NCBI GenBank assembly: GCA_030638335.1
Contig: DAOWET010000131.1
Span: forward strand, 1-33,247
DNA length: 33,247 nt
Direction: 5' to 3'
Source: Nitrospirota bacterium
Lineage (GTDB): Bacteria > Nitrospirota > Thermodesulfovibrionia > Thermodesulfovibrionales > JdFR-86
The translations under genes and the position numbers were made by a program. The notes under the pieces were generated by a model. That model saw nothing but the letters and a program-made list of their open reading frames with translations, was not told the origin of the DNA and did not search any database. Each line of letters starts with the position of its first letter. Position 1 is the first letter of the stretch. Positions 4,153-32,718 of the stretch are shown piece after piece.

Positions 4153-4167
4153 GGAGGGGGTGATTTG

Positions 4168-7100
4168 ATGAGGCAGGCCAGGACAGGGATAATAGTAGGA
4201 ATTGCGGCGCTCTTTTTGGTGTTGACCGCATCCGCGGCGTTCGCTATTGACGCGCCGCATAACAACCTGACCAGTTGTCGTAACTGTCATGATTTACTTG
4301 CATCGGGTAGTTATACCACCGGTGGCCTAATTGACAACACCCCCGTCAATCAGGCCTGCCAAGAGTGTCACCGCACAGGAGGCGCGGCGGCCGATTTCTC
4401 AAAGGTGACCCACTCCTCCAGAACGACTGGCTCTGAATTATCCTACGGCCCCTGGGCCACGGACTGTATAGACTGCCACGACCCCCACAACCAGGAACAG
4501 ATATGGTTTCAGGAAAACAATGTATATGTGAACATGAAGGCGTATAACGGTACCGCTGACTCTGGCGCCTTATTGGAGACCGCAACCGTGACCGGCGTGG
4601 TGGCCAATGAAGTTTCTGTAACATTTGCAAATGCTGGTGGCTGGCCGACCGACCAGTGGGTCGGCTATACCCTTATAGATACTACGAGACCTCCTTCGTG
4701 GGGACTGTCTTACAAGATAGTCAATTCCACTGCTGGCCAATCTGCTGTTATAAACACTGTGCGCCCGATTTACGATGCCGGTCTCGGCTCTGTCGCCATT
4801 GCCTACGGCAAGATGATGCGTGGCGAGATGCGCACGGGCAGCCAGGTCGTGAACTCCAACGGCACTGTTCCAGGAGGCGACGGCTTTATAAACATCAACG
4901 TCTGGCGGCCAGTCAAGTTCTTCAATTCATCCGGCATATATTCTCCGGCCTGGAGCATAAACGCTCAGGACGCCGTCTGTGTGGTCTGCCACCTCAAGAC
5001 CGCGTCATTCAACATGGGTTACGCACAGTACGGCGAGGATTTTGATGGCATTGTGGAAGACTATGCCAACACCTGGCACAAGGACAATCCATCGGACGGG
5101 GCCACGAACTGCTGGACCACGAGCGGATGCCACGAGCTGCCCAAGGAAGGCTTTGACGCCGACTGCAGCGGCTGCCACGGCCAGCCCCCTTCGGATGCAA
5201 CGGTCGTAAATCAGACCTCATCGAACAACTACCCATGGTATTCGGGCATGGACGCGGGCGCGCACCAGGCACACGTTGCCAAAGGCAAGGGCACCTGCAC
5301 CTACTGCCACGATGGCGGTGGCGCGGAGGACCCTGAGCACAAGTTTGATGACCAGATCACGATGGGCTTCAGCAATGTGCTCAGCGGTGAAGCGACATTT
5401 GTTAACGGTCTCGCGTTTGCCAACTCCTCATGGATCGTTGAGTCTGGTGATGCAGGTACAACGATAGTTGATGATAGCAGTGATGTAAGGACCTGTACCG
5501 GCATCTACTGCCACAGCGACGGGGCGAGCCTTGCGAGCGCTTTCGCGCAGACCCCTGACTGGGACGGCGGCTCACTTAACTGCAACAGCTGTCACGCCTC
5601 GCCGATGATCGTCGACGCGCACGACAAGCACGCCTCGGGCGGTACGAACGACTACCAGTTCGACTGCTATGAGTGTCACGGTGACACCACGGACCAGGGC
5701 GACAACAGCACGGTCCCCGCGATCAAGAACGCCGCGCACGTAAACTTCGTAAAGACCATAGCATGGGGCAACGTATCCTCTGGTAGTGGTGCATACGACC
5801 TTGGGACGGCCAACTGCGACAATGTATACTGCCACGGCCCGACCGCGGCAGCGCTGGAAACGCCAAACTGGGACTCTTCTCTTTCCGACGAGTGCGCCAG
5901 CTGTCACGACAAGGCCGGAGCGACAATATCGAATCTGCCTGATGCACACGACGCGCATACGAACACCACTGGCAACTCCTATAACTGTACGGAATGTCAT
6001 GACACCGTACTGACGGACGATACAACCATTTCGGACTACTCATTACACGTAAACGGCTTGAACACAGTGGACGCCTCAGAGGGCTTTGCCGCAAACGCCT
6101 GCTCCACTACCATTTGTCACGGGCCTGCGGGCTCACCCACATGGGCAACGGACCTATCAGGCATTGACGACTGTACCAAGTGCCACGGTGTCCAGACCGC
6201 GGGCTCGGCCACAGAGATCCAGATGGCGCCGGGCGGCACGGGTCAGGACCTTGACGGTAACATATCCGCTGCTGATGCCAATGTAGGCGCGCACCTGGCA
6301 CACCTGAATGCATCAGCCGGCATATCCAACAACATTGACTGTGTTTCCTGCCACGACGTGCCTGCTACTCCGACCAGCGCAGGACATATTGATGCCTCAC
6401 GCCCTGCGGAAGTGCCTTTCAATAACGCGCTTTCCAATAATTCAGGAGCGCTTTCCCCTGCTTATAATGTGGGAACCAACAGTTGCGCAAACACATACTG
6501 TCATGGCAACAAAATGCCCTTCGGAACTTCACCGGGCGTTGGTAACACCCCGGTATGGGCTAATACGACCTACCTGGACACAGGGCCTGACCTGACCGGA
6601 GACTGTGACAAGTGTCACCTGAGTCCTCCAGACGTGCTCAGCTACCATAACGCAGACCAGTCACTCTCTGATTGCGATACCTGTCACCTGCATCTAGACG
6701 ACGATGGTACCTTCAACGACCCGAGCCTCCATATTGACGGGCTTGTTCAGGGGATAGCCTGTACGGGCTGCCACGGTCAGCCTCCTGAGAACGCTTTAAC
6801 CATGGTCAACACCGTTGCAACGCTTAAGCTGACCCAGAGGACTGAAGGTGATTTCGCTGCAACTGCATGGGGCCAGCACAGCTACCATGCAGTTGGAAAG
6901 GGATATATCTGCCAGACCTGCCACAACGGCGGTGGTTCAACTGGAAACGACCATATAACCTCGCCCTTTGGTAATGTGACCATGGGTTTCAGGATCAATG
7001 CGGTGGATGGCGGTACGTTTAACGCTCCAGCGATCGAAAACTCGACGGTCTACCGGCATTCACAGGGCCCGTCCACTACAGTTAATAACCTTGGGGCCAT

Positions 7101-10100
7101 CAGGGCCTGTTACTCCATCTACTGCCACAGCGACGGTGCGGGCGGCGTGCCCAACGCGCTTGCCAACTGGGATACAGGAGACGGCTCCCTCACGTCAGGC
7201 GACTGCAAAAATTGCCACGGCGATGCCACTGACCTGGTGGTGACCACCATGCACCCGACACACGTGGGTTCTTATGACTTCACCTGTTCGGAGTGCCACG
7301 CAGGTACAGTTGACGCGGATAAGGCCATACCAGCAGGCAAGATAGCAAACCACGTGAACTTCGGCGTGGACGTTATCTTCTCCAATGTAGCCGCAGGCGG
7401 CTCTTGGAGCGGTACTGCCACGAAGCAGTGCTCAAGCCTCTACTGCCACTCCGACGGACTGGGCGGCAACCCGAACACGAACCCGCCCGACTGGGACGCG
7501 GCGTTCCCAACCGACTGTATAGGTTGTCATGACAATGACAAGGACGCGGCCGGCGGCAACGTAATGAACAGCGGAAGCCATACCACACATATAAACAACG
7601 CGGCCTACGTGGGCCGCATACTTGAGTGTTACGACTGTCACGCGGCCACTATGGACATGGGAGACAACCAGGCCATAGGCTCTGGGAAGCTTGCCAAGCA
7701 CGTAGACGGCGCGATAGACAACCTGGTAGCGGTGGACGCCAGTGAGTGCAGCAACATCAGGTGCCACAGCGACGGTAACTACGGGGCCACGGTGAAGTAC
7801 AATGACGCAGGGGCCAACTGGGGCTCTCTGGATTACAAGTGCGGCAACTGTCACGGTGACGGCTCCACGGACCCGGAGCCTGCCTACGCCAACACTGGAG
7901 CGGCTATAGGCAACTACAACAGCCATGATAAGCACGTGGTTGCACTTACAGACTGTGCCAACTGCCACGATGACACCACCAGCGACGGGGAATCTGTGAC
8001 GACCACGGGGATACACGTGGACGGAGTGGTTAACGTGGCCATAGCCGGTGCATATGACGACAACGCCGACAAGTACGACAACTACACTTCGGGCACGAGG
8101 AAATGTACGAACCTGTATTGCCATAACACGGGCACGCCGGTATGGGGCAGCGCTTCGCTTGCCTGTAACGAGTGTCACGATGCTTCAAGCGAACTGCCTG
8201 GCAGCCACGCCAAGCACTACAACACGACGACAGTGGCCGCAGACTACACGGCGGGCAGGGTATCCAATACCACGGCATACGAGTTCAAGTGCGGTGTGTG
8301 CCACGACGACACTGTCCACGCAGGGGGTGAGGTAACGGCAGACAGTACCGCTGAAGTGCTGTTCAACGATACATACGCCGGGGCAAGCGCCTATAACAGC
8401 ATAGGAGGCACGCCAACGGCTGACGGCAACTTCAGCTGGACCAATACGGTATGTTCGTCCACCAAGTGCCACGACGACGGCACGGGTGGTGTCCCGAACA
8501 CGACGCCCATCTGGAACAGTGCGGCAATGGCTTGTGACAGCTGTCACAATGCATTGCCCATCACAAACGCGCACTCCAAGCACATAGCCGGTGGCACGGT
8601 TATGGCCAACGCGCTATGCGACACGTGTCATGAGGATACGGCGTCGGACATAACCAACTCCGCGCTTGAGGACTACGACTGGCACGTAAACGGCGTTATT
8701 AACGTGATAATGAACACCGCCGCGGGCGGCACGTTTGATGATGGTACAAACGTCTGCTCCACCAGCAACTGTCACGACGACGGCCTTGGCGGTGGTCCGA
8801 ACACAACGCCCGACTGGACATCAACGCTTCCTGCGGGCTGTATAGGTTGTCATAATAATGACAAGGACACAGCAAGCCCGATGATAACGGGCAGCCATGC
8901 CACGCACCTGGACAACTCTACGTACGTGGGCAGCGAGCTTGAGTGTTACGACTGTCACGCGGGCACGCTGGACATTGGTAACCGGGTCATAGGTTCAAGC
9001 AAGATCGGCAACCACGTAAACGGTACGATAGACAACCGTGTGGCGATGGACGGCACGGCGTGCAACAACATCAGGTGCCACAGCGACGGTAACTACGACG
9101 GCACGATACAGTACAACGACGCATGGGCCAACTGGGGCTCTCTGGACTACAAGTGCGGCAAATGTCACGGTGACGGCTCTACTGATCCGGAGCCTGGTTA
9201 CGCCAACGCACCGGCCTCCAGTGACGAGAACAGCCACGATGAGCACATGAGCGCGGGTACTGACTGTGCGAATTGCCACAGCGACACCACAGCAGATGGA
9301 TCCACGGTGTTTGCCAACAGCATCCACGTGGACGGTGTGGTGAACGTAGCCATTGCTGGAGCATACGATAGTAATGCCGACAAGTACGACAACTTCACCA
9401 AGGGCACGAATACCTGTACTAACGTGTACTGCCACAGCACGGGCCAGAACGCCTCTGGCGGCACGCCCCCTGTGTACAACTCGCCGGTATGGGGTATTGC
9501 ATCAAGCGCCCAGTGCGGCAAGTGCCACCTTGCAGACGGCGTGCAGGGCGATGCCTCCACGATGCAGACCCAGGCGCATAACGAGCACCTTGCTTACGGC
9601 GGCGTGAACATAGCATGTAACGACTGCCATGACGGTCTTGGCTCAGGCCAGGCAAACCACGCTGATCAGAACGTGAACCATGCCTTCCTTGCTGCCAACG
9701 CGGGCGCGAGCGCCGCATACTCTAATAGCGGTTTCGCAGCAGGAGACAGTTTATACGGAGAATGCTCAAGCGTGTACTGCCACGGTGACTTTACCGGTGG
9801 TAATGTTGTGAGCCCGAGATGGGACGATGCAACAGCAGCGTGTGGCACATGCCACGCCTCCTCGCCCACCTCAAACGCGCACGACGTGCACCTGGCGCTC
9901 ACGGGCGTGACCCTTACTTGTATTGACTGCCACGGGCACGAGGGAAGCAACACACACGTTGGCATGGTGGTCAACGGAATACTGAACTCCTCGGCCTGGT
10001 TCTTCAACAGTTCTTCCACTTATGGTGGTTCGGGCACATGGAGCGACGGCAAGGCAGACTCTGCAACCACGTCTACCTGCGCCACGGTAATGTGTCACAG

Positions 10101-11721
10101 CATGGTTCAGGAGACCACAGGAAACGGTCAGACACTGGACGGCTCTGCCGGCGACTACAAGACGCCGGACTGGGGCGGAAGCATAACCGACTGCGTTTCC
10201 TGCCACAACGACGGCACAGCTGGCACTGCGATCAAAAACGGTGCGCCCGCTTCCGGCACGCACCCGAAGCACGTGACCGACAACAACTACACATGTGATA
10301 AGTGTCATGTAAGCGGCGGAAGCTACGCTGTAGCCAACCACCCGAACAACCAGATAAACGTGGCCAATGCCACGAACATATCAGGTGGATACTCCGACGA
10401 CACCGGAGCGCCTGGAAACTCCACATACGGCACGTGCTCGACCGTTGCATGCCACGGCGACAACGACGCCGACTGGGGCGGGGCAGCACTTACATGCCGC
10501 GACTGCCATTTCAGCGAGTCAGCTGACTATGACGACTATATTTACGGCAACGGCGACTTCGCCCTGATAAAGAACACGGGTGAGTGGCTTGTGGAGGGCC
10601 ACGGAGGCACCGTAGCTTATGCCAGCGGCAACCCTGCGGCTAACTTTGATGTAAGCTCCCAGGACGGCTGCCGCTACTGCCACGACAATAGCGCTGGCGC
10701 TCCCCATGACGATGCGGCCAACCCGTTCAGGCTGTACAACTCCTCGAACGGAGAGGTGCCTGATGTGGACGGATGGAACGACATCTGTCTGGCCTGCCAT
10801 GACAGCAATACGACAGACTCTGCTTTCGATCCCACACCGGGCGATGTACTTGCCGACGTTGACACAACGGGTGTTGTGAAGGTGGACAAGTGGCACCAGA
10901 TGGCAGCACACGGCCTGAGCCCCAACAACGGCGGACGCTTCTGCTGGGATTGCCACGATCCGCACGGTGATAACAACAACATGATGATGATCCACGCCAG
11001 GACCGCCAAGAAGACGGACGGCGTATACGGCAACCCGGGTAATGTATCGAACCTCGTGGGCGCGCCCATCGTGTTCACTGATAACACGAAGGCTACGGCC
11101 GTCGGCGGATTCGCTGTGAATACCACCAGGTACAACGAGGGCGCAGGTGATCCATATGCCGAGGGCGTGTGTAACGCATGCCACACCAACAGCGCGGCCG
11201 ACCCGAAGATGGAGCACTACAACGACACGACCTCTGACGACCACAACCAGGGCGGAATCTGCACGAGCTGCCACAAGCACAGCAAGGACGCTGTCAACGA
11301 CGGTAACGCCTTCCAGGGCGGAAGCTGCAGCGGCTGCCACGGATACCCGCCTGACGCATTGGACGGCAAGGCCTATTTGGACACATCAACCGAGAGCAAG
11401 GGCGCACACGTGGTGCATGTGAACCATCTGCTGACAGTTGGCTCACTGCCTGCGCTTGATCCGGATGCGGACACCTTTGACCATGCGGTTGACAAGTTCG
11501 AGAAAGTCTGCGGCGTGTGCCACTCGACTGCCACGCACGAGACGGGCGATCCTGCTGCTGGCAACAGGACGGTCATCGTGAACACAACATATACGTTCGG
11601 GCCTACGGGTAATGCCACATACACTGGCACCCCAGGCACAGACCATACCGAGGATCTCAAGACCTGCTCGAACGTGGACTGCCACTTCAGGACGTCCCCT
11701 GAATGGCAGAGCTACCCATAG
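4168..11721 (+). CDS. Giant multiheme c-type cytochrome (2517 aa) of the Geobacter-type CX4CH...CX2CH repeat family
   Basis: SD GGAGGGGG then ATG 4168 (TTG at 4165 also possible); signal peptide ...SAAFA; hand count 44 CX2CH, 16 CX4CH, 1 CX5CH; alternation matches the GSu_C4xC__C2xCH family. Confidence 0.95.
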   Translation: MRQARTGIIVGIAALFLVLTASAAFAIDAPHNNLTSCRNCHDLLASGSYTTGGLIDNTPVNQACQECHRTGGAAADFSKVTHSSRTTGSELSYGPWATDCIDCHDPHNQEQIWFQENNVYVNMKAYNGTADSGALLETATVTGVVANEVSVTFANAGGWPTDQWVGYTLIDTTRPPSWGLSYKIVNSTAGQSAVINTVRPIYDAGLGSVAIAYGKMMRGEMRTGSQVVNSNGTVPGGDGFININVWRPVKFFNSSGIYSPAWSINAQDAVCVVCHLKTASFNMGYAQYGEDFDGIVEDYANTWHKDNPSDGATNCWTTSGCHELPKEGFDADCSGCHGQPPSDATVVNQTSSNNYPWYSGMDAGAHQAHVAKGKGTCTYCHDGGGAEDPEHKFDDQITMGFSNVLSGEATFVNGLAFANSSWIVESGDAGTTIVDDSSDVRTCTGIYCHSDGASLASAFAQTPDWDGGSLNCNSCHASPMIVDAHDKHASGGTNDYQFDCYECHGDTTDQGDNSTVPAIKNAAHVNFVKTIAWGNVSSGSGAYDLGTANCDNVYCHGPTAAALETPNWDSSLSDECASCHDKAGATISNLPDAHDAHTNTTGNSYNCTECHDTVLTDDTTISDYSLHVNGLNTVDASEGFAANACSTTICHGPAGSPTWATDLSGIDDCTKCHGVQTAGSATEIQMAPGGTGQDLDGNISAADANVGAHLAHLNASAGISNNIDCVSCHDVPATPTSAGHIDASRPAEVPFNNALSNNSGALSPAYNVGTNSCANTYCHGNKMPFGTSPGVGNTPVWANTTYLDTGPDLTGDCDKCHLSPPDVLSYHNADQSLSDCDTCHLHLDDDGTFNDPSLHIDGLVQGIACTGCHGQPPENALTMVNTVATLKLTQRTEGDFAATAWGQHSYHAVGKGYICQTCHNGGGSTGNDHITSPFGNVTMGFRINAVDGGTFNAPAIENSTVYRHSQGPSTTVNNLGAIRACYSIYCHSDGAGGVPNALANWDTGDGSLTSGDCKNCHGDATDLVVTTMHPTHVGSYDFTCSECHAGTVDADKAIPAGKIANHVNFGVDVIFSNVAAGGSWSGTATKQCSSLYCHSDGLGGNPNTNPPDWDAAFPTDCIGCHDNDKDAAGGNVMNSGSHTTHINNAAYVGRILECYDCHAATMDMGDNQAIGSGKLAKHVDGAIDNLVAVDASECSNIRCHSDGNYGATVKYNDAGANWGSLDYKCGNCHGDGSTDPEPAYANTGAAIGNYNSHDKHVVALTDCANCHDDTTSDGESVTTTGIHVDGVVNVAIAGAYDDNADKYDNYTSGTRKCTNLYCHNTGTPVWGSASLACNECHDASSELPGSHAKHYNTTTVAADYTAGRVSNTTAYEFKCGVCHDDTVHAGGEVTADSTAEVLFNDTYAGASAYNSIGGTPTADGNFSWTNTVCSSTKCHDDGTGGVPNTTPIWNSAAMACDSCHNALPITNAHSKHIAGGTVMANALCDTCHEDTASDITNSALEDYDWHVNGVINVIMNTAAGGTFDDGTNVCSTSNCHDDGLGGGPNTTPDWTSTLPAGCIGCHNNDKDTASPMITGSHATHLDNSTYVGSELECYDCHAGTLDIGNRVIGSSKIGNHVNGTIDNRVAMDGTACNNIRCHSDGNYDGTIQYNDAWANWGSLDYKCGKCHGDGSTDPEPGYANAPASSDENSHDEHMSAGTDCANCHSDTTADGSTVFANSIHVDGVVNVAIAGAYDSNADKYDNFTKGTNTCTNVYCHSTGQNASGGTPPVYNSPVWGIASSAQCGKCHLADGVQGDASTMQTQAHNEHLAYGGVNIACNDCHDGLGSGQANHADQNVNHAFLAANAGASAAYSNSGFAAGDSLYGECSSVYCHGDFTGGNVVSPRWDDATAACGTCHASSPTSNAHDVHLALTGVTLTCIDCHGHEGSNTHVGMVVNGILNSSAWFFNSSSTYGGSGTWSDGKADSATTSTCATVMCHSMVQETTGNGQTLDGSAGDYKTPDWGGSITDCVSCHNDGTAGTAIKNGAPASGTHPKHVTDNNYTCDKCHVSGGSYAVANHPNNQINVANATNISGGYSDDTGAPGNSTYGTCSTVACHGDNDADWGGAALTCRDCHFSESADYDDYIYGNGDFALIKNTGEWLVEGHGGTVAYASGNPAANFDVSSQDGCRYCHDNSAGAPHDDAANPFRLYNSSNGEVPDVDGWNDICLACHDSNTTDSAFDPTPGDVLADVDTTGVVKVDKWHQMAAHGLSPNNGGRFCWDCHDPHGDNNNMMMIHARTAKKTDGVYGNPGNVSNLVGAPIVFTDNTKATAVGGFAVNTTRYNEGAGDPYAEGVCNACHTNSAADPKMEHYNDTTSDDHNQGGICTSCHKHSKDAVNDGNAFQGGSCSGCHGYPPDALDGKAYLDTSTESKGAHVVHVNHLLTVGSLPALDPDADTFDHAVDKFEKVCGVCHSTATHETGDPAAGNRTVIVNTTYTFGPTGNATYTGTPGTDHTEDLKTCSNVDCHFRTSPEWQSYP

Positions 11722-12078: not shown

Positions 12079-13663
12079 GGATTTGTTAAGAGGCAGTGGG
12101 AGATACTACATATTCATGACGCTTTTCTTCACCGGAGCGGCGATCATGGTGCTTGAGCTTCTGGGCACAAGGATCATAGGGCCGTACTACGGTGTGAGCC
12201 TCTACGTCTGGTCCTCTCTCATCTCGGTGGCCCTTGTGGCACTTGCCATAGGCTACTGGCTTGGAGGAAAGGTGGCCGACAGGGTCGTCCAACTGGACTC
12301 TGGCGACATGCATACCGACGAGATGGACGCAAGGGCGACCCGTGTGCTCTACAGGCTGATCATGGCCTCCGGTGTCGCGGTGCTTCTGATCCCGATCATT
12401 GCGGATACGGTCCTGAGGGCCATGCTTCCGCTTGGCATAAGGGGCGGGGCGCTGGCCAGCGCCTTTGTGTTGTTCACTATACCTCTGGTAGGCCTGGGGA
12501 TGGTCACCCCATACGCGATCAAGATGCTTACGGACAAACTGAAGGTTGTGGGCGCAACCGCAGGCAACCTGTTTGCCATATCCACTGTGGGAAGCTTTGT
12601 AGGGACCGTACTTACGGGCTTTGTGCTGATCCCGAATGTCGGGACCAAGAAGACGATCTACCTGCTTGCGGGAATACTCTTTGTGCTCTGGGCGACCTGG
12701 GAGGTCATGGACAAAAAGTACGCCATTGCGGCGATAGGTATTCCGCTTATTGTTCTTTGTATTGCGGGCTTGATGTCTACCGGTAAGCTTGAGGCTGTTG
12801 AGGGCTTTGAGGTCAGGCACAAGACCGAGAGCTTCTATGGTCAGCTCAAGGTCATAGATAAAGAGAACAAGCGCTGGCTGAGCATTGATGGTGCAGGCCA
12901 TACGGGTATCAACCTCAATACGGGCCTTTCGCTTCATTCTTATGCGTATTACTTTGAGATCACACGTTTCATGCGTCCTGAGGCAAGGGATGTCCTGGTG
13001 GTAGGTCTTGGGGGCGGGAGCGTGACAACGAGATTTGAGCAGCACGGATTCTCTGTTGATTCCATCGAGATAGATCAGAAGGTGGTGGACATAGCGCGTG
13101 AGTTCTTCGGGTTCAGTTCCCCCGTGGACAGGGTCTTTGTCCAGGACGGACGCGCATTCATTCAAAACAGCGAGAAGAAATACGATATCGTGCTGTTCGA
13201 CGCTTTTGTGGGTTCTGACACGCCTCCCTTCCAACTCATGACAAAGGAGATGTTTGCGGAGGTGTCCGGCGTGCTCAAGGATGACGGTGTCCTGGCGATA
13301 AATTCCTTCGGGTTTAAGCAGGGCAAGGGCGTGAGGATACCAGCTTCCATGTATCTGACGCTTAAGGAAGCTTTCCCGCATGTAAAAGCGTTTTCCGTTT
13401 ACGACAAGTCGGAGTTCGGGAACATCGTGTTCCTGGCCTCTGAGGGCGAGCTGGAACTCAGGCGGGAGCTTGAGGGCTGCGACATAGAAGGGGTTTGCAC
13501 GCTCCTGGGCGAGATGCTTTCAAAGGAGCGGACGTTCGCCTCATCACAGGGAGTGGTCTTAACGGACGATTACAACCCTATCGAGGCCTGGGGTGTTATG
13601 ACCAGCGAGAAAATCAGGAAGGGCATACAAGATTTCTACCCTGCGGAGGTGCTTGCGCTATGA
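12062..13663 (+). CDS. Fused integral membrane / spermidine synthase-like (SAM-binding) protein
   Basis: Multiple N-terminal TM helices (GAAIMVLELLGTRIIGPYYGVSLYVWSSLISVALVALAIGYWLGGKVADR), then C-terminal SpeE-like Rossmann domain VLVVGLGGGSVTTRFEQHGFSVDSIEIDQKVVDIAREFFGF...DIVLFDAF. Confidence 0.85.
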   Translation: MEKGNEDLLRGSGRYYIFMTLFFTGAAIMVLELLGTRIIGPYYGVSLYVWSSLISVALVALAIGYWLGGKVADRVVQLDSGDMHTDEMDARATRVLYRLIMASGVAVLLIPIIADTVLRAMLPLGIRGGALASAFVLFTIPLVGLGMVTPYAIKMLTDKLKVVGATAGNLFAISTVGSFVGTVLTGFVLIPNVGTKKTIYLLAGILFVLWATWEVMDKKYAIAAIGIPLIVLCIAGLMSTGKLEAVEGFEVRHKTESFYGQLKVIDKENKRWLSIDGAGHTGINLNTGLSLHSYAYYFEITRFMRPEARDVLVVGLGGGSVTTRFEQHGFSVDSIEIDQKVVDIAREFFGFSSPVDRVFVQDGRAFIQNSEKKYDIVLFDAFVGSDTPPFQLMTKEMFAEVSGVLKDDGVLAINSFGFKQGKGVRIPASMYLTLKEAFPHVKAFSVYDKSEFGNIVFLASEGELELRRELEGCDIEGVCTLLGEMLSKERTFASSQGVVLTDDYNPIEAWGVMTSEKIRKGIQDFYPAEVLAL

Positions 13664-13749
13664 GCACAAATAGTAGCCGCAAGTTCGCGTTCGCGGGGAC
13701 ACAACAGAGCAGGACAAAATCCAATATAGAAGGCGAGGTGAGGAGCAGA

Positions 13750-16700
13750 ATGCCACGAGGATATGGAAGGATAATGACGACGGCCGGGAGGACGGCCAGC
13801 GGCCTTGCTGTGTTCATGGCCGTACTGTTCCTCATGCTTGCGATAGGGATATTCGTTGCACCTCAGGACGCATTTGCCACCGGAGACTATGCAATAGCCG
13901 ACGGTACCGACCCCGGGGAGCTGTTTCCGGCCCCGAACACTAGCGGCAATGTGACGAGCTCGTGGGTAGGAACAGCACCCAGCGGCGCCAAGCTCAATAG
14001 CCTTATCGTGACATTTGGTGGAACCTTTGACTCCGACGACATCACGGGGGTTGAGGCTTGGGATGTAGGAGGAGCAGCGCTAATCTGCACGCTTACCCCT
14101 GTTCCCACGGCTCCTAATGATACAGCAAGCTGTACTGGTCTTACCGCAGGGGCCTTTGTTGATGCTGCGATCCGCGTAAACCTCGCGGCTGGCGCAACTG
14201 TTGGAAATAAGATAAACTCATATATATCCGGCGGCACTGGAACTGCGTCGCTCGTCAACAATGATTCTGTGGATGCTGACCAGACGATTACTGGGGGAGC
14301 TACGCCCACTGTGGCGGTAGTCACCGGGACAGATCCTACAGACACGACTCCATGCCCTGGCTCCAAAGTATATGTGGACCAGTTTGGGGCTACTGAGAGC
14401 ACCGGCGGCGCCACGACAATAACAGACGTGATAGTAGGCCTTACGGACTATACTGATGTGTCAGCAATATTTATAAACAGTTCGGACGACTTGACTAATT
14501 ACCATACGTCCGGGGCTCCGGCCAGCAACACTCAGGCGCTTTCCCTGGGTGCGGCTTTGCCTGTGAGCGCCAGCACCACGACCAATTTCAAGATATGGCT
14601 GACATTGAACGCCGGAGCGACAGGGGCCGCTACGGCCAAAATTAACTCCTTCACGCTATCCTCGGGGACCAATAACGGTTCGACTGACACCAGCAATACG
14701 TTCAACATCGATGCCGCCCCGTCGATCATAACGGCATTCTCCGCCACCAGCGGACAGGACGGACAGGTGCCCATCTCCTGGACCATTCCCGGTGACGGAG
14801 ACCTGGACCAGCTCATAGCCATCAGGAACACGGGTGGTTATGTCACGGACCATACGGCGGCACCTCCAGGGACAAATGTTTACACGAACGACACTCCTTC
14901 TGGCGGTGAGGACGTTACGACCGACACTACGGGGCCGCCTTCGAACGGCACTACTTATTACTATGCAGTGTTTGCGGTGGACAACTGCGGCACATGGAAC
15001 GACACTGTAACGCCTGACTCTAATGCGGGCACAGGCACGCCCTCGGCTGGCGGCGACGTTACCGCTCCAACGGTGAGCGATGTCACGCCTTCGAACGTTT
15101 TCTATGATTCAGGGACCGACTATGTTGACGCTTCATATGACGTGTCCGCCAACATGACCGAGGCAGAGAGCACTGTAACGGATTGTGACTTCTCTACGAA
15201 TAACGGCGGTTCATGGACCGTATCCGGGTCGGTTGGCGGCTCCTCGCCCAACTGGACATGTACGGCTTCGGGCGTTGCGGCAACCGATACAACGACATAT
15301 AATCTGTTGGCAAACGCCACGAGCACCGGAGGTACGGGCCAGAGCAGTGTGGCAAACACAGTGGTCGGTGATACCAGCGCTCCAACAGACGGGACGCTTA
15401 CTGTTAACCCGGGCGACGGCTCAAACGGACTAAGCTGGACCGCGGCTTCGGACTCAGGCTCCAATCTCGATACTACGAACACATACCTGGTGGTGAACTC
15501 GCCTGACTCGGCAATAGGCGCAAACTGTTCCATAGACGGCAACGACACATTGCTCGCCACCCAGAATTCCGTTACTACCACTTATAATGATACCCCGCTT
15601 TCAAACGGCACACAGATCTGGTACATGGTCTGTGCACAGGACAACGTGGGCAACATCTCGTCCGGAACCACAGACACCGGCACGCCCACGGGGGCAACGG
15701 GTGATGTGCTTTCAGGCTCCAACGTTGTAAACGCGACAACAGCAGACCCCAGCGACCTGGGCGTGTTGATGCAGAAGGTAACCCTTACTTGCTCGGTCGT
15801 TGATGACGGTGAATGTGTTATCACGAACGTAGGGGTACAGGACAACTTTGCAGGCGGAGCCACGCACATTGACAAGGCTATAGCCAATATATCTTCAGCC
15901 GCAGACTGCGGAACCGTTGTGGCCACAGGCTCCACTGCCGAAAACTGGGACGCCTCGGACACACCTATAGCCATTGCCTGGTCCCTTACTGGCACTGAAT
16001 ACCTCTGTATCTACTACGACTTTGAGGCTGACGCTGCTTCCCTTGTCCAGTCCAAGGTCACGTCAATAGTCCTTGATACAACCGGCGGCGGAGACCTGAA
16101 TGACAGCGTTACGATGGGCACCTGGCAGTCCAACAGCTTTGCGGTGGGAGTGGCTGAGACCGACCAGTTCAACGTAATAGACTGCAACGACTGCCACGGC
16201 ATACAGAGCGGCACATGGGCGCCAACGGACTCGCCCACTGAAATACGCAACGCCCCCGCGGGCGCGGTTGTGGGCGACCACGCAACGGGCACGACCCACG
16301 TGCCCACCGGAGAGGCCGCAAGCGAGTGCGTTGTCTGCCACGGCTCTGACGTGGACAGCTATGACAACACCCACCGCACGGGCGTCGTAAACATGGCTGC
16401 GGATGGCGACATAGACGGCGGCAAGTACGACCGTGGGATATCCTTTAACCAGAGCAACACTACAGGAGTTACTAGCACATGCACCAGCGTCAGCTGCCAC
16501 GGCGGCGGTACAACGCCCGTGTGGGGTGTCGGGACTATCAACTGCGACAGCTGCCACAAGGTAACCCAGGCTCTGTCGGCCAGGCACGGCGACCACTACA
16601 ACACCACGACGATCCTTGGCACAAGGACACCTACCAACAACTCAACCTCGGCTGACTATATCTTCAACTGCGGGGTCTGCCATGACGTTGCGGGACACGC

Positions 16701-19700
16701 TGACGCGGGCCATGCTAACGGGAGCAACGACGGGATATTCACGTATAACGGCTACACTGTGGACATAGTGTTCAACCTCACGCCCTGGAGCGCAAGCGGC
16801 GGTGCGTATTGGAACAATGGCGCGGCAACGGGTAACGGCAACTTCCCCTACTGGTCCGAAGGCCAGTGCTCGAGCGTGTACTGCCACAGCGACGGCAAGA
16901 GTTCTCCCGTGGTGTACAACACCCCGAAATGGAGCGACACGGGCTATACGTGCGTGAGCTGCCATGACGACGACGGCGGGGAGGCCAACGACACCTGGCT
17001 GAGCGCCAAACACGCCAGCCACATAGAGCAGAACAAGTACAATTATAACTGCGGCGAGTGCCACGCGGAGACCGTTGCGGACAACACGAGCTTTCCGATA
17101 ACGGGCTTTGCCAACCATGTTAACGGTGTAAGGAACGTGGTCTTCGGTTCTGCGGGCAGCATGGACCAGAGTGGCGGCACCATATCGGCTCTCGTATGCA
17201 GCAACACCTACTGCCACGACGACGGCCAGGACACCACGCCTCCATTCACGTCCACTTCTCCCGACTGGGATACCGGGACTACGAGCTGCACGAGCTGCCA
17301 CAGCAACAACGCGAACCCGTCAGGGTTGAGCGCACCGCATGCAGTGCATGTTGACCCCGATCCTGACCAGAACTACACATGCGACAACTGCCACAGCCTG
17401 ACATTGGTAAACAACCAGAACTCAACGCTTAATAGCCCAGACGCCTACACGGTGCATGTGAACGGCATACAGAACGTGGTCTTCTCGGCCACGGCCTTTG
17501 CCTCCAACCACAGGAGCCTTGCTGTGAACAGCGCGGGCTACAACGGCACCCAGTGCACAAACGTGTACTGCCACAGCGACGTGCAGGGATCAAACGGTAC
17601 GGCGCAGCCCGCCTCATATGCAACGCTTAACTGGGCCTCAGGGGCCCAGTCCTGCACCACGGGCGACTGCCACGACGGCAAGACCGGCTCTGTGATGGCA
17701 ACAGGCAGCCACGGCGCGCACCTGACCGCGGGATACGACTGCGTGGACTGCCACAGGGCCGGCGGCGATGGAAACATCGGCAACCATGTTGACGGCTACA
17801 TAACGGTCATATTCAACGCGGCATATGGCGGCAGTGGCGGCAGCTACACCCAGGGCGCGGAGAGCGCGCCAGAAAACGGCTATGGAAGCTGTTCCTCGAA
17901 CTACTGCCACGGCTCAAGCTCTGACGCATGGAACACTGACAACTCGTCCTACTACGAGTGCACGCAGTGCCACGGCAGCAAGAACGCTGCTACGGACATT
18001 GCGAACGCCGCACCGGGTATCAATAATCTCGGCGTTGACACAAACGGCGATACCCTGCCCGCGGACTTCCAGGTGGGTGTGCACAACGCCCATATAACGG
18101 TCCCGAGCAATATCTATAACACAAACGGCATATCGTGCGACGAGTGCCACCCGGTCATCTCCTCTGTAGATGACGCGGACCATATAACCACCGATCTGCC
18201 TGTCGAGGTCCCCATCGACGGCGCAAGGGCCACCAACGGGACCGCAGCCGGGACATACACCCCCGGCAGCCCCGGCACCTGCTCAGCCACCTACTGCCAT
18301 GACACGGCATACTCAACATCGGCCTACGAAGGCGGTGTAGACGTTACCCCCAGATGGACCGACGACAACTATATAAATGGCACTGCCGCGAACTGGTGCG
18401 AAATGTGCCACGGCAACCCGCCCGGAAACGGCCATGACGCTAATCCTACCTGCAGTTCCTGCCATCTGCACGTGAACAGTGCGGATGAGGAATCCTTCAC
18501 TGACCCGAACCTGCACATAGACGGCATTGTCCAGGCTGATGCGGACTGCTACGGATGCCACGGCGCTGACACGGGAGGTGTGCGGCAGGTCACTAAAGCG
18601 GGCGGAGACTTCGTCAGAGGCAGCCGCCACGTGAGCGACGGCACGACCGGAGAGATAGTCACCATGTGGGACTGTATTGTCTGCCACCTGGAGGGCAATG
18701 CCTCCACAACGCAGAACAACGGCGTGACCATTGGAGACCGCGACCCGAACTACCACAACTATGATACTGCTACGAAGTCTTCAACAGGAAAATACCCCGT
18801 CAACCTGCGTAATGTTGACAACCACGCCGAAGAGATGGTTACATGGAACATAAACGGCACCATGGGCACCTCACAACGTGACGGCATGGATTCGTTCTGC
18901 ATGAACTGTCATGACGACTTTGGCTCTGCCGACATAGCGGTCGCCAACGGCGATCCACCTGCCACTCCGTTCATGCTGACTGACGGAGTAGCCAACACGA
19001 CTGCCAGGACAAACGGTGGTGGCAAGAATACTAATCACAGGCCGTTCAACCAGAACGATACACTACACAACGTCAATGACTTATCAACTCTGGGCACATT
19101 CAGGACTTCATACGGCAATGTGCTGGACGTGAAGCGCCAGTTCAACTCCACGAACAGGGGCCCGACCACCACTACCCCAAGGAGCGACTGGGCCTCGCAC
19201 CACAACCTGAACCAGTTCGACCTGAGGTATGCCAACAGGAACTCAACCGCATGGCCCGCCATTGCCTGGACTTCATACACCACCAAGGAGAACGTGCCCA
19301 TTAACGGCGCCACGGGCGGCGAGATAGCCGGGCTGCACTGCTCTGACTGCCACCTGAACGAGACGAACGCCCACGGCTCGGCCAACGCCTGGTACATGCT
19401 GGCCAACGAGGACGAGACCACTGACCCCAGCGGCTCGGCGGATGTTGCGCCTGCCGCTCTCTCTGATTCCGCAGTCGGGCAAACTACCAACTGCTTCAGG
19501 TGCCATGCGGACACCTTCTATGCGGGTGCAGACTCCTCTGATGGAACCGGATGGATCGTCCAGTTTGACCACGGCTCGGAATGCGACGATAACCAGGTAA
19601 ATGAAGCTGATGAGTATTTTGGCAGGATACAGTGTCTTGCCTGCCACGGGGGCTTTAGCGAGTACGGCTCCGGGGGCCTGGGAGCCATACACGGAAACAA

Positions 19701-19977
19701 CGACACCTATATGACTGAGGGCAACGGAACCACGACAAGGCGCTTCCGTTTCATGAGCGGAGCCACAATGAGGTGGTATAACCCGAATGGCGCGACCGAT
19801 TTTACTGGTGACGGTGAATGGACGGACAGTACTCTGGGCGGCTGCTATACGGTCGGCACCGACGCCCCCTCTACCGGCGCACCATGGGCCGGAGGCTGCG
19901 TATCGCACGACACGACGGGGGCGGCTGTGGATATCGATACCGAGGCTATTGCAGTTCAAAGGGGGCTTGATTACTAA
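13750..19977 (+). CDS. Large chimeric multiheme c-type cytochrome: ~800-aa N-terminal Ig/FN3-like region plus C-terminal CX4CH/CX2CH heme region
   Basis: ORF track starts at 13495; best start is ATG 13750 (SD GAGGTGAGGAG) or ATG 13660 (ATGA overlap with preceding stop); signal-like VLFLMLAIGIFVAPQDAFA; hand count 19 CX2CH + 7 CX4CH, all after ~16180. Confidence 0.92.
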   Translation: MPRGYGRIMTTAGRTASGLAVFMAVLFLMLAIGIFVAPQDAFATGDYAIADGTDPGELFPAPNTSGNVTSSWVGTAPSGAKLNSLIVTFGGTFDSDDITGVEAWDVGGAALICTLTPVPTAPNDTASCTGLTAGAFVDAAIRVNLAAGATVGNKINSYISGGTGTASLVNNDSVDADQTITGGATPTVAVVTGTDPTDTTPCPGSKVYVDQFGATESTGGATTITDVIVGLTDYTDVSAIFINSSDDLTNYHTSGAPASNTQALSLGAALPVSASTTTNFKIWLTLNAGATGAATAKINSFTLSSGTNNGSTDTSNTFNIDAAPSIITAFSATSGQDGQVPISWTIPGDGDLDQLIAIRNTGGYVTDHTAAPPGTNVYTNDTPSGGEDVTTDTTGPPSNGTTYYYAVFAVDNCGTWNDTVTPDSNAGTGTPSAGGDVTAPTVSDVTPSNVFYDSGTDYVDASYDVSANMTEAESTVTDCDFSTNNGGSWTVSGSVGGSSPNWTCTASGVAATDTTTYNLLANATSTGGTGQSSVANTVVGDTSAPTDGTLTVNPGDGSNGLSWTAASDSGSNLDTTNTYLVVNSPDSAIGANCSIDGNDTLLATQNSVTTTYNDTPLSNGTQIWYMVCAQDNVGNISSGTTDTGTPTGATGDVLSGSNVVNATTADPSDLGVLMQKVTLTCSVVDDGECVITNVGVQDNFAGGATHIDKAIANISSAADCGTVVATGSTAENWDASDTPIAIAWSLTGTEYLCIYYDFEADAASLVQSKVTSIVLDTTGGGDLNDSVTMGTWQSNSFAVGVAETDQFNVIDCNDCHGIQSGTWAPTDSPTEIRNAPAGAVVGDHATGTTHVPTGEAASECVVCHGSDVDSYDNTHRTGVVNMAADGDIDGGKYDRGISFNQSNTTGVTSTCTSVSCHGGGTTPVWGVGTINCDSCHKVTQALSARHGDHYNTTTILGTRTPTNNSTSADYIFNCGVCHDVAGHADAGHANGSNDGIFTYNGYTVDIVFNLTPWSASGGAYWNNGAATGNGNFPYWSEGQCSSVYCHSDGKSSPVVYNTPKWSDTGYTCVSCHDDDGGEANDTWLSAKHASHIEQNKYNYNCGECHAETVADNTSFPITGFANHVNGVRNVVFGSAGSMDQSGGTISALVCSNTYCHDDGQDTTPPFTSTSPDWDTGTTSCTSCHSNNANPSGLSAPHAVHVDPDPDQNYTCDNCHSLTLVNNQNSTLNSPDAYTVHVNGIQNVVFSATAFASNHRSLAVNSAGYNGTQCTNVYCHSDVQGSNGTAQPASYATLNWASGAQSCTTGDCHDGKTGSVMATGSHGAHLTAGYDCVDCHRAGGDGNIGNHVDGYITVIFNAAYGGSGGSYTQGAESAPENGYGSCSSNYCHGSSSDAWNTDNSSYYECTQCHGSKNAATDIANAAPGINNLGVDTNGDTLPADFQVGVHNAHITVPSNIYNTNGISCDECHPVISSVDDADHITTDLPVEVPIDGARATNGTAAGTYTPGSPGTCSATYCHDTAYSTSAYEGGVDVTPRWTDDNYINGTAANWCEMCHGNPPGNGHDANPTCSSCHLHVNSADEESFTDPNLHIDGIVQADADCYGCHGADTGGVRQVTKAGGDFVRGSRHVSDGTTGEIVTMWDCIVCHLEGNASTTQNNGVTIGDRDPNYHNYDTATKSSTGKYPVNLRNVDNHAEEMVTWNINGTMGTSQRDGMDSFCMNCHDDFGSADIAVANGDPPATPFMLTDGVANTTARTNGGGKNTNHRPFNQNDTLHNVNDLSTLGTFRTSYGNVLDVKRQFNSTNRGPTTTTPRSDWASHHNLNQFDLRYANRNSTAWPAIAWTSYTTKENVPINGATGGEIAGLHCSDCHLNETNAHGSANAWYMLANEDETTDPSGSADVAPAALSDSAVGQTTNCFRCHADTFYAGADSSDGTGWIVQFDHGSECDDNQVNEADEYFGRIQCLACHGGFSEYGSGGLGAIHGNNDTYMTEGNGTTTRRFRFMSGATMRWYNPNGATDFTGDGEWTDSTLGGCYTVGTDAPSTGAPWAGGCVSHDTTGAAVDIDTEAIAVQRGLDY

Positions 19978-24340: not shown

Positions 24341-25174
24341 ATGTCGCCGTTAGAGGCAAAGCTGGTTCTGATAACAATAGTAGCGCTTGCCATATCTACA
24401 GCGCTATACCTGTATTCGTTCATATTCAGGAACGAGCGTGTCATGAGGGCTTCCTATTATTTTCCGATGGGCTGTTTTGTGCTGCTGACCGCAGCCATAT
24501 TGGCCCGGTATGAGGCTGTGGGAAACCTTCCCGTGGCAGGCGTATACGAGTCGTCGCTCGGAGGCGGGTGGTTTGTTATTCTGTTTACGATGTATTTTTC
24601 ATACCGCAACAGGGCCCTCTCGGTGGTGGGGCTCGGGACCATACCATTCACACTTATCCTTCTTGGCCTTGGGGTGATGTCGGGACCGGAGTTGAGTCCC
24701 ATGGCCGCATCGATCAAATCCTTCTGGCTCTATATCCACGTGTTCTTTGCATGGCTGGCCTTTGGCGCCTTTGCCATATGTTTTGGACTTGGCATCATCT
24801 ATCTGCTGAAGGAGCGCAACCAGGGCAAGGAGTTCTATGACAGGTTTCCCGCCCTGGAGCAGATGGATGAGATGATGTTCAGGTACCTTGTCTTCGGTTT
24901 CATTACGGACGCGGTGATGATAGCCTCGGGGGCCGTCTGGGCAAAGAACCTCTGGGGCAACTACTGGGGATGGGACCCGGTGGAGACATGGTCTCTGGTG
25001 ACATGGCTCATTTACGGCCTGGCCATCCACCTGCGCGTCACTTTGGGCTGGAGGGGAAGGAAGCTGGCCTGGATCCTTATCTTCGCCCTTGGCGGCATGG
25101 TTATCACCTATTTCGGGATCGACTGGTTTGTTAAGTCCAGCTTCCACGCGTTCGACGTATGGCAGGGGATCTGA
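24341..25174 (+). CDS. ccsA: System II cytochrome c biogenesis protein CcsA/CcsB (ResC-type heme handling protein)
   Basis: WWD-type motif WGNYWGWDPVETWSLVTWLIYGLAIHLR; multi-TM; GGAGGG SD. Confidence 0.92.
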   Translation: MSPLEAKLVLITIVALAISTALYLYSFIFRNERVMRASYYFPMGCFVLLTAAILARYEAVGNLPVAGVYESSLGGGWFVILFTMYFSYRNRALSVVGLGTIPFTLILLGLGVMSGPELSPMAASIKSFWLYIHVFFAWLAFGAFAICFGLGIIYLLKERNQGKEFYDRFPALEQMDEMMFRYLVFGFITDAVMIASGAVWAKNLWGNYWGWDPVETWSLVTWLIYGLAIHLRVTLGWRGRKLAWILIFALGGMVITYFGIDWFVKSSFHAFDVWQGI

Positions 25175-25707: not shown

Positions 25708-26599
25708 GACATTTAAATATATCTTTTCATACGAGCTTTTCCTCGTGATGCTTGCCTGTCTGCTGGCCGGCGGTGCGCTTCTTCTGCGTGCGATGGACAT
25801 GGAGGTGTTGCGTGCGATGGAGCTTCTGCCTGTGAAGGTGTTTTTCATCGCCATAACTGTTAACAGGGTTGGTGGAGTGATCCATGACGGTATTTTCAAC
25901 AGGCCCCGCCTGCTGCTCTCTGTAGGGGTGATCATGGTTATCGCCGGAGCAGGGGTAAATAGCGCCATGTGGTACAGGGGTACCGTAGGGCTTGGCAGCG
26001 GAGAGCCCCTGGAGGGTTTTGAGCAGGTATCCCATGGCATTTTTGCGGGCGAACACGCAGGCGGCGGCATTATCATCAATTCCATCTCAGGTGACGTGCT
26101 TATGAATCCGGAGGATAGCGAGGTGGAGATCTTTGGCGAGGGCGGAGCCCGGTATTCCCTGCACAGTGGAGATAGCCAATGGCAGAGGTACATATACAGG
26201 GTGAGGGTAGAGAGTGTGGAAGCCGCCCCGTTGTTTCAGGTCAGGAGCCCGCAGGGGGCAGAGGTCTTCTCGTCATTTGTGAAGTTGAGGTTGCATCCTG
26301 TTGGGGAAAGGGACTACTTTATGGTCACCCCGCTGCCTCACAGGTTCTATCTTTCCCTGACGGCGGATGAGGACAAGCCTCTGCGCCTGGTTGTGACAAG
26401 GGGAAGGCTTGTGCTTATAGACCAGGGGGTAGCCCTTGGAGAGGTGATAAGTCTTGATGATATTAAAGTGCGCATACCCTCTGTGACAGGGTGGGTCCGC
26501 CTCACCGTGGAGAAGCAGCCGGGGCGTATCGCCATGCTGGCAGGATTATTCATGGTGGCGGCAGGCACAGCCATTGTCCTTTGGAGAAGGTATGGGTGA
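25688..26599 (+). CDS. Membrane protein with ResB-like topology (TM cluster, beta-rich periplasmic domain, C-terminal TM)
   Basis: TMs YELFLVMLACLLAGGALLL and RPRLLLSVGVIMVIAGAGV; C-terminal GRIAMLAGLFMVAAGTAIVLWRR; between ccsA and resB, overlapping both neighbours. Confidence 0.7.
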   Translation: MDPSSSRTFKYIFSYELFLVMLACLLAGGALLLRAMDMEVLRAMELLPVKVFFIAITVNRVGGVIHDGIFNRPRLLLSVGVIMVIAGAGVNSAMWYRGTVGLGSGEPLEGFEQVSHGIFAGEHAGGGIIINSISGDVLMNPEDSEVEIFGEGGARYSLHSGDSQWQRYIYRVRVESVEAAPLFQVRSPQGAEVFSSFVKLRLHPVGERDYFMVTPLPHRFYLSLTADEDKPLRLVVTRGRLVLIDQGVALGEVISLDDIKVRIPSVTGWVRLTVEKQPGRIAMLAGLFMVAAGTAIVLWRRYG

Positions 26600-28040
26600 G
26601 AAGGCAGTGGCCGGCAGGCTTATACGGGTTCTTGGTTCTCTGAGGCTGACCCTTTTCCTCATTGTCACACTTACGGTCATATTCTCCATTGGCCTTGTCG
26701 TCCCCCAGAAGGACCTCCTCAGCAGGGAGATGTACGTGAACTGGAAGGCTGACAGGCCCTTGCTTGTGGAGGCCCTGGAGTTCCTTGGTTTTCTCGATAT
26801 CTATATCTCCCCGCTGGTACTTGTCCTGTGGGCCTTGTTCTTTTTGAACCTTGTTGTGGTCATGTCCAGGAGGGTTTCGCTCATATGGAAGCGCTGCACA
26901 GTATTTAATATACCAAAGACCGCGGAGCAGGTCCTGAAGAGCAGCAACTGCCGGACGGTCCGGGAGAGTGAGGCGGGGGCGTTCTCTGGAATGCTGAAGC
27001 GGAAGGGGTATTCTGTTCGCACCTCAGGCAATGGGTTGCATGCTGTGAGGAACCGCTGGTCCCCTCTTGCCACCCTCATGTTCCATCTCAGCTTTCTCCT
27101 GCTCCTGGCAGCGGGCTTCCTGAGCTTCTATACGAAATTTACCGCTGAAGCATCTGTGGCGGTGGGCGAGGTTTTCAGGGGAGAGTATGAAAACAGCCGT
27201 CCTGCGCGTTTTGGCGGTAGGCCGGACACCCGGTTCATGGTTGACTATGTTCGCCCGTCCTATTTCGATCGAAACGTGCCAACCGACCTGGACATAGGAA
27301 TAATTACTGAAAAAGACGAGAGGAAGACCATAGGGATAAACAGGCCCTACAAGGACGGGCTTGCATATTTCGTGATAAAGAACATAGACGTAGCGCCGCG
27401 CATAGTGCTGACTGACCTTGAGGGCAATGTGCTCGATGACGTATTTGTAAAGATAAAGATGCTGCGCGGCATGAAGGACTTTTTCAGCCTGGAGGGGTAT
27501 GATTTCAGCGCTGTCTTCTTTACTGACGTGAACCTGAGCCAGGACGATCCGGTGATGAGCAGCGGCTCAGGTACCCCACAGGCCCTGAAACAAAACCCCA
27601 ATACTGAAGTCCTCCCCCCGGCACAACCCCGCGAGATAGTGGCTCCCGCCCTCAACCTGACGGCATTCAGGGATGGAGATATCCTTCAAACCCATACTCT
27701 CCTGCCAGGGGAGTACATTGAGTTCAACGACCGCAGGGCGTACTTTCAGGGGTATGTCTATTGGGTGAAGTTCATGGTCTCTCGTGACTTCGGCCAAGTC
27801 CCGGCGTATGCCGGTTTTGTCCTCATGACCGTTGCCCTTGTGTTCAGGTTCGCCTTCTACCGGCGCGACATACGTGCTTATGCACGGGACGGTATTGTGC
27901 ATTTTACTGGCAGGGCTGAGTATTTCCCTATCCTGTTTGCCGGGGAAATGGAGCGTATGAGTTCCGGATTCGAAGGCACTGGCGAGGTAAACATTGAAAG
28001 AGATATAAATGCAAGAGACAATAGCAAAAAGAGTCAATAG
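26592..28040 (+). CDS. resB: Cytochrome c biogenesis protein ResB (Ccs1)
   Basis: LGSLRLTLFLIVTLTVIFSIGLVVPQKD, NRWSPLATLMFHLSFLLLLAAGFLSFYTKF, periplasmic domain, C-terminal TM; ATG 26592 preceded by GGAGAAGG. Confidence 0.9.
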   Translation: MGEKAVAGRLIRVLGSLRLTLFLIVTLTVIFSIGLVVPQKDLLSREMYVNWKADRPLLVEALEFLGFLDIYISPLVLVLWALFFLNLVVVMSRRVSLIWKRCTVFNIPKTAEQVLKSSNCRTVRESEAGAFSGMLKRKGYSVRTSGNGLHAVRNRWSPLATLMFHLSFLLLLAAGFLSFYTKFTAEASVAVGEVFRGEYENSRPARFGGRPDTRFMVDYVRPSYFDRNVPTDLDIGIITEKDERKTIGINRPYKDGLAYFVIKNIDVAPRIVLTDLEGNVLDDVFVKIKMLRGMKDFFSLEGYDFSAVFFTDVNLSQDDPVMSSGSGTPQALKQNPNTEVLPPAQPREIVAPALNLTAFRDGDILQTHTLLPGEYIEFNDRRAYFQGYVYWVKFMVSRDFGQVPAYAGFVLMTVALVFRFAFYRRDIRAYARDGIVHFTGRAEYFPILFAGEMERMSSGFEGTGEVNIERDINARDNSKKSQ

Positions 28041-31483: not shown

Positions 31484-32266
31484 CTATTTCTCAGTAGCTT
31501 TTTCAGCCAGTTCGTTTGCTCTGACAGCCCCGCTTAGAACTTTACCGCTCTGGTACACAATGGTTGGTGTTGAATTCACTCCCAGAGACCTTCCCAGCCT
31601 GAGGCTTTCATCTACTGCCTGAGTTTTACAGTCAGGTTTCGGATTAGCTTTTTTCTCGAACACCTTGTCCAGCAACTCAAGTGATTTTTCGTTGTCTTCC
31701 TGGCAAAAAATCGCGGTAGATTTCCCGTAGGCCTCCGGGTGGATGGTGGTCAGAGGGAGAAATTTTATGTAAAAGGCTATGTCATCTCTCATTGCTACTA
31801 CCTGCTTCATCTCCTGATGAAGTTGGGCGCAGGCAGGTCAGTCGGGGTCGTCAAAGACCACCACCTTGAACTCTGCCTCCGGGTCTCCCAGAATGACTGA
31901 GTTCTCAAGAGGGATGGATGAGAAGTCCACCATTCTTAAGGACTCGAACTTCTTCTTGGTGTAGTTTACGCCGGTGGTAAGCCCTATGAGCGAGCCCACA
32001 ACGATGTACTGCTTCGTGGCGTCGAGGTAGACCACGCCCGTGTCGCCCTGGCTTGTGAAGGCCACCTCCATTAGCCCGGGAAGGATGGCAGGCTCAATTG
32101 AAAGCACCCTTATGTCGGGAAGGACTGCCCTCAAGGCGTCCTGTGCCTGCTCTGTGGTGAGGACTGTCTGCGCGGCGTCTGGTTTTGCCTCATGCGCAAG
32201 AGCAACAGTAGCGCAGGTTATGATGATGGCAGCCGTAAGAACTGCAGTTGCGTAACGTTTAAGCAT
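31484..32266 (-). CDS. DsbC-family thiol:disulfide interchange protein with in-frame TGA at the catalytic Cys; candidate selenoprotein (UPAC), 260 aa with readthrough
   Basis: The two ORFs 31838..32479(-) and 31484..31810(-) lie in one frame separated only by TGA 31840..31838. Joined product: signal peptide, DsbC N domain, KVVVFDDPD-U-PACAQLHQEM, FLPLTTIHPEAYGKSTAIFC, LGVNSTPTIVYQSGKVLSG. SD AAGGAGA before ATG 32266. Confidence 0.8.
31801..31840 (-). promoter_or_regulatory. Candidate bacterial SECIS element immediately 3' of the in-frame UGA
   Basis: UGA-CCUGCCUGCGCCCAA-CUUCAUC-AGGA-GAUGAAG-CAGG: perfect 7-bp apical stem (31816-31822 with 31805-31811), loop AGGA 22 nt after UGA, lower CCUG/CAGG pairing. 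Confidence 0.6.
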
Positions 32267-32316
32267 AGTTTCTCTCCTTATATGTATTGTCAGTAGATGC
32301 TTTGTCATGCCGGGTT

Positions 32317-32718
32317 TCATTCCGGTCCAGGCCGGTTCAGGCCGCGGGTGAATTCCACGGGAAGGCGCGTTGGCCGGCCCGTGGGACCCAGCATGGCCAC
32401 AGTGACCTCTGCCTCTGCAAGCAGGGTATCGCCTCGGAGGCATTGCTGCCTGAGCATGGCAGAGGCGTGTTTGCACCATCCCAGCCCGGTCTGAATCTCA
32501 ACAGTGTCACCGAGCCTTGCCGGGCTCCGGTATTTAATGTCAACGCGGGTAACTATGAAGATGCGGTTCTTGTTATGAAGCTGTGCGAGGTCCAGCCCCA
32601 TCTCAAAGATCATCTCCGTGCGGCCCCGTTCCATGTACCTCAAGTAGTTGGCATGGTAGACCACGCCTCCCGCGCCGGTGTCTTCATAATAGATCTTGAT
32701 CTTCATGCTGTGAGACAT
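32317..32718 (-). CDS. ybgC: YbgC/4-hydroxybenzoyl-CoA-type hotdog acyl-CoA thioesterase
   Basis: YYEDTGAGGVVYHANYLRYMERGRTEMI is the classic YbgC active-site region; start may instead be Met at 32706. Confidence 0.88.
   Translation of the reverse strand: MSHSMKIKIYYEDTGAGGVVYHANYLRYMERGRTEMIFEMGLDLAQLHNKNRIFIVTRVDIKYRSPARLGDTVEIQTGLGWCKHASAMLRQQCLRGDTLLAEAEVTVAMLGPTGRPTRLPVEFTRGLNRPGPE

Follow-up and report, generated by a model that had tools for sequence, protein, structure and literature searches.

Does a reading frame that is interrupted by a stop codon at the catalytic centre of its predicted product represent a broken gene, or does it encode a selenoprotein? This question is raised by a dsbC-like gene on the minus strand (31484..32266) of the 33,247-nucleotide stretch of Nitrospirota DNA analysed here, hereafter the window. 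Read from 32266 to 31484, the gene is one continuous frame of 260 codons followed by a TAG stop, and its lone interruption is a TGA at codon 143 (minus strand, 31838..31840, read 31840..31838). The TGA lies in the context DDPD-U-PAC, at the position of the first active-site Cys, and a Shine-Dalgarno sequence recognisable in the DNA, AAGGAGAG (minus strand, 32272..32279), is found a few bases 5′ of the ATG. Under translation table 11 the frame is cut into two open reading frames, 31838..32479 and 31484..31810. The earlier note on this DNA had described a single frame broken only by this TGA, preceded by a Shine-Dalgarno sequence and liable to be reported by automated callers as two truncated proteins; its coordinates proved exact and the other two points hold as well. 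It had also argued against decay. Consistent with this, identity to relatives is 45–53% on the 3′ side of the TGA versus 42–48% on the 5′ side, and the relatives hold either TGA or Cys at this column; because identity is as high after the TGA as before it, the downstream part is not decaying. By itself, the C-terminal piece still matches PF13098 (3e-10).

The architecture of the full-length protein is that of DsbC. A signal peptide assigned by eye, MLKRYATAVLTAAIIITCATVALA (minus strand, 32195..32266; the N-terminus has low pLDDT), is followed by a DsbC_N dimerisation domain at residues 33–103 (31958..32170, minus strand; PF10411, 1.1e-10) and a thioredoxin-fold catalytic domain at residues 133–255 (31502..31870, minus strand; PF13098, 3.2e-19). 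Both matches are above cut-off, and both domains are likewise matched by all 27 members of set A1. Among solved structures, DsbC and a disulfide interchange protein of Neisseria come closest by sequence; the AlphaFold model (pLDDT 89) has DsbC as its top PDB matches, and its catalytic half superposes on 3gv1 with an rmsd of 2.6. The low whole-chain TM-scores of the model are probably due to a differing angle between the two domains. Cys188, Cys213 and the Thr-Pro at 233–234 are invariant alignment columns, and the two cysteines align with Cys residues of 3gv1. From these columns and the DsbC architecture we infer an isomerase function, and we consider it very probable that the gene encodes a periplasmic DsbC-type disulfide isomerase/reductase with selenocysteine (Sec) as its nucleophile (U143-P-A-C146).

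A different role can be envisaged for such an enzyme, namely that it mainly reduces the CXXCH thiols of apocytochrome c, in the manner of CcmG or ResA, rather than acting as a general isomerase. The window itself invites this idea, as it contains open reading frames rich in CXXCH (44 and 19 motifs) together with genes for cytochrome c maturation proteins that resemble CcsA (PF01578) and ResB (PF05140) (4165-11721, 13495-19977, 24341-25174 and 26574-28040), and the only DsbD_TM protein of the genome could supply electrons. However, the two-domain DsbC architecture speaks against this role, as do the relatives, which are without conserved cytochrome neighbours: in the stretches examined, an open reading frame with at least three CXXCH motifs lies near only 1 of 109 homologous loci. 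The suggestion in the earlier note that the enzyme serves the nearby cytochromes is therefore unsupported despite the CcsA- and ResB-like genes, and a dedicated apocytochrome reductase seems unlikely. A link to haem of another sort appears within the family. Between the signal peptide and DsbC_N, 85 of the 110 homologues (47 Sec and 38 Cys copies, in the range L019–L128 and including L049 on G000:C205) carry a CXXCH motif, often as D-C-x-K-C-H-T-L. A CxxC lacking the His was seen in a single copy (L071), which suggests that this motif may be a haem c site. The motif is present in a Cys paralogue in the window's genome but not in the window copy, and none of the 16 rows in the clade of the window protein has it.

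Evidence that the general DsbC-type enzyme uses Sec comes from the catalytic column itself. A homologue search across 121 genomes gave a match in 113, and among the 110 copies extracted, which come from the same order, this column holds TGA in 65, TGT in 23, TGC in 22 and no other codon. Sixty-four homologues besides the window gene therefore share the TGA, always at the same column, which is more than chance would produce. The TGA is thus aligned with the redox Cys of homologues, as is characteristic of bacterial selenoproteins, and the earlier proposal that Sec stands in for the first catalytic Cys is supported. A named collection of 78 scored loci, which overlaps the 110-homologue set and consists, judged by title, nearly entirely of Nitrospirota metagenome-assembled genomes, contains 34 TGA and 44 Cys loci; the sole locus titled Deltaproteobacteria (L207) has Cys. 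The UPAC motif of the window protein is rare, occurring also in L126, and one Sec homologue (L033, G010:C1:2087672-2088403) has UPFS, with the second active-site Cys changed to Ser.

Downstream of the TGA lies a hairpin, CTTCATC-AGGA-GATGAAG (minus strand, 31805..31822), at offset 15–32. All 65 TGA genes have CUUCAUC-NNNN-GAUGAAG or a variant of it at offset 15 after the UGA, with loops that are mostly NGGN. All seven stem pairs are present in 64 of the 65 Sec genes, three of which have one pair altered on both sides from T-A to C-G (CUUCACC/GGUGAAG), versus 3 of the 45 Cys genes (p = 1e-25, Fisher test). When the Sec genes were redrawn with synonymous codons, full stems numbered 0.6 in 65 on average and 5 at most. 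Both figures leave relatedness out of account and thus count more independent cases than there are; the stronger point is the near-absence of the hairpin from the interleaved Cys branches. The Leu codon within the hairpin is CTT in 65 of 65 Sec genes versus 13 of 45 Cys genes, and the Cys genes that keep full stems (L044, L064 and L085) can be read as recent losses of Sec. For the window gene, folding of the 42 bases that follow the UGA gives −17.7 kcal/mol (z = −3.9); in the minimum-energy fold the outer helix is longer and the apical loop is that of the core hairpin. With a loop G and a position shortly after the UGA, as in bacterial selenoprotein genes, this conserved hairpin is a bacterial SECIS element.

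The machinery to use such an element is encoded in the same genome, a 2.78 Mb draft in 300 contigs that is 92% complete. It contains a tRNA-Sec with anticodon UCA (70 bits), SelB (364 bits), SelA (595 bits) and SelD (347 bits), the complete selA, selB, selC and selD set characteristic of a bacterium that makes selenoproteins. SelD itself has an in-frame TGA; its gene (L017, G000:C228:3514-4437) has GTCC-GGA-GGAC after the TGA, with a GGA loop that resembles those of the DsbC hairpins. Searches for selA find it in most relatives. Those without an intact selA include G062, G079 and G111, which carry Cys copies, and G083, whose listed DsbC copy has no in-frame stop. In G079, broken pieces of selA and selB (G079:C105:4711-5259 and G079:C97:8709-9711) lie in a genome where tRNA-Sec survives beside the selA pieces and the DsbC copy is of the Cys type, so that Sec use seems to have been lost there recently. 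A point against the Sec reading is that in G035 and G073, both with TGA copies, neither selA nor a full selB was detected, although tRNA-Sec is kept; gaps in the assemblies are the likely cause.

These observations bear on two readings in which no Sec is made. The fragmented state of the draft, together with the long branch (0.93) on which the window protein sits, could point to a pseudogene or to a sequencing or assembly error in which a TGC or TGT codon was misread or mutated to TGA. This is refuted by the recurrence of TGA in independent genomes, the conservation of the hairpin together with the TGA, the undiminished downstream identity and the presence of the Sec genes, and we assign it a negligible probability. 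That the frame runs on past the UGA would also fit decoding as an ordinary amino acid, through reassignment or plain readthrough, but this is just as remote and is rejected, as several other window open reading frames end at TGA as an ordinary stop, giving no sign of genome-wide reassignment, a UCA-anticodon Sec tRNA coexists with SelA, SelB and SelD, and the recurrent TGA substitutes for Cys only and is accompanied by the hairpin. The catalytic UGA is almost certainly read as selenocysteine. The checks that the earlier note had called for, on homologues, SECIS element, Sec genes and the genetic code, all came out in favour of its selenoprotein DsbC, which frame and domains support as well.

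It is informative to consider how Sec and Cys copies are distributed on the tree (109 rows, midpoint-rooted). Their pattern needs 21 changes, at least 13 of them forced by well-supported branches; with the midpoint root, changes from Sec to Cys alone number 22 versus 27 for changes from Cys to Sec alone. Because a single SECIS sequence is shared, ancestral Sec with many losses would be the simplest reading, with a root that is only a midpoint. By and large, the selA searches fit this picture. One might extend this to a scheme in which Sec is ancestral in the DsbC lineage of this Nitrospirota order and has been lost to Cys some 22 times, most members (the window's clade excepted) carry haem c beside DsbC_N, and the isomerase could swap electrons with periplasmic cytochromes and not with a DsbD-type partner alone; to this whole we give little credence. 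In addition, given its long branch and rare UPAC motif, the window protein may differ in activity from its relatives.

If the DsbC-type selenoprotein works as proposed, SelB would bind the hairpin and bring Sec-tRNA(Sec) to the UGA, and the exported protein would dimerise through DsbC_N. In exported proteins, U143 would then attack incorrect disulfides (or oxidised thiols), with C146 resolving the mixed selenosulfide where a reduction is called for. If selenium were lacking, translation would halt at the UGA and only the N-terminal domain would be made. Dozens of related genomes share this arrangement, which adds a full-length Sec-containing DsbC across many Nitrospirota whose gene would be split by callers that stop at TGA. 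The paired copies with Sec and with Cys, of which some Cys ones retain an intact SECIS remnant, form a natural series that bears on what Sec offers a periplasmic isomerase and on how a SECIS element decays once Sec is lost.

How does this protein compare with those already described? Like E. coli DsbC (1eej), it combines DsbC_N with a thioredoxin fold; the active sites align, and the Thr-Pro loop and another two conserved Cys are shared, although it has Sec in place of the first Cys. Its score against the NCBIfam equivalog NF008129 is 66.7 bits, versus a cut-off of 215, so that it is best described as a DsbC-like distant relative and not as a PRK10877 equivalog. In the literature that was searched, no Sec-containing DsbC was found by name, the DsbC match that was read being about a fusion to a Prx-like selenoprotein. 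Among selenoproteins, a 2026 review counts 119 prokaryotic families or subfamilies (PMC13188914). One of these is a thiol:disulfide interchange protein with PF13098 and UxxC, another is the DsbG-like NF041057, and both kinds have been predicted since 2005–2006 (PMC1794560, PMC1088965). The DsbG-like selenoprotein is likewise of the Dsb type with UxxC (PMC1088965, PMC1794560), but membership in it is rejected: the NF041057 model has no match in the window protein or in the 26 relatives scanned, and the only match in the genome is to another gene, on C182. That gene (L210, G000:C182:2391-2882), with a partial sub-cut-off match and one in-frame TGA, is possibly another selenoprotein of this genome. 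With the PF13098 UxxC selenoprotein WP_011366075.1 (PMC1794560; PMC13188914, Table 1), the window protein shares the catalytic domain, the UxxC motif and the status of predicted selenoprotein, and by domain and motif alone it fits this kind. That family is listed for Deltaproteobacteria (for example Geobacter metallireducens and Syntrophus aciditrophicus), whereas the window protein is from Nitrospirota. We therefore take the protein predicted here to be a real selenoprotein of a general kind that was already known, in a lineage, the Nitrospirota, that is new for it.
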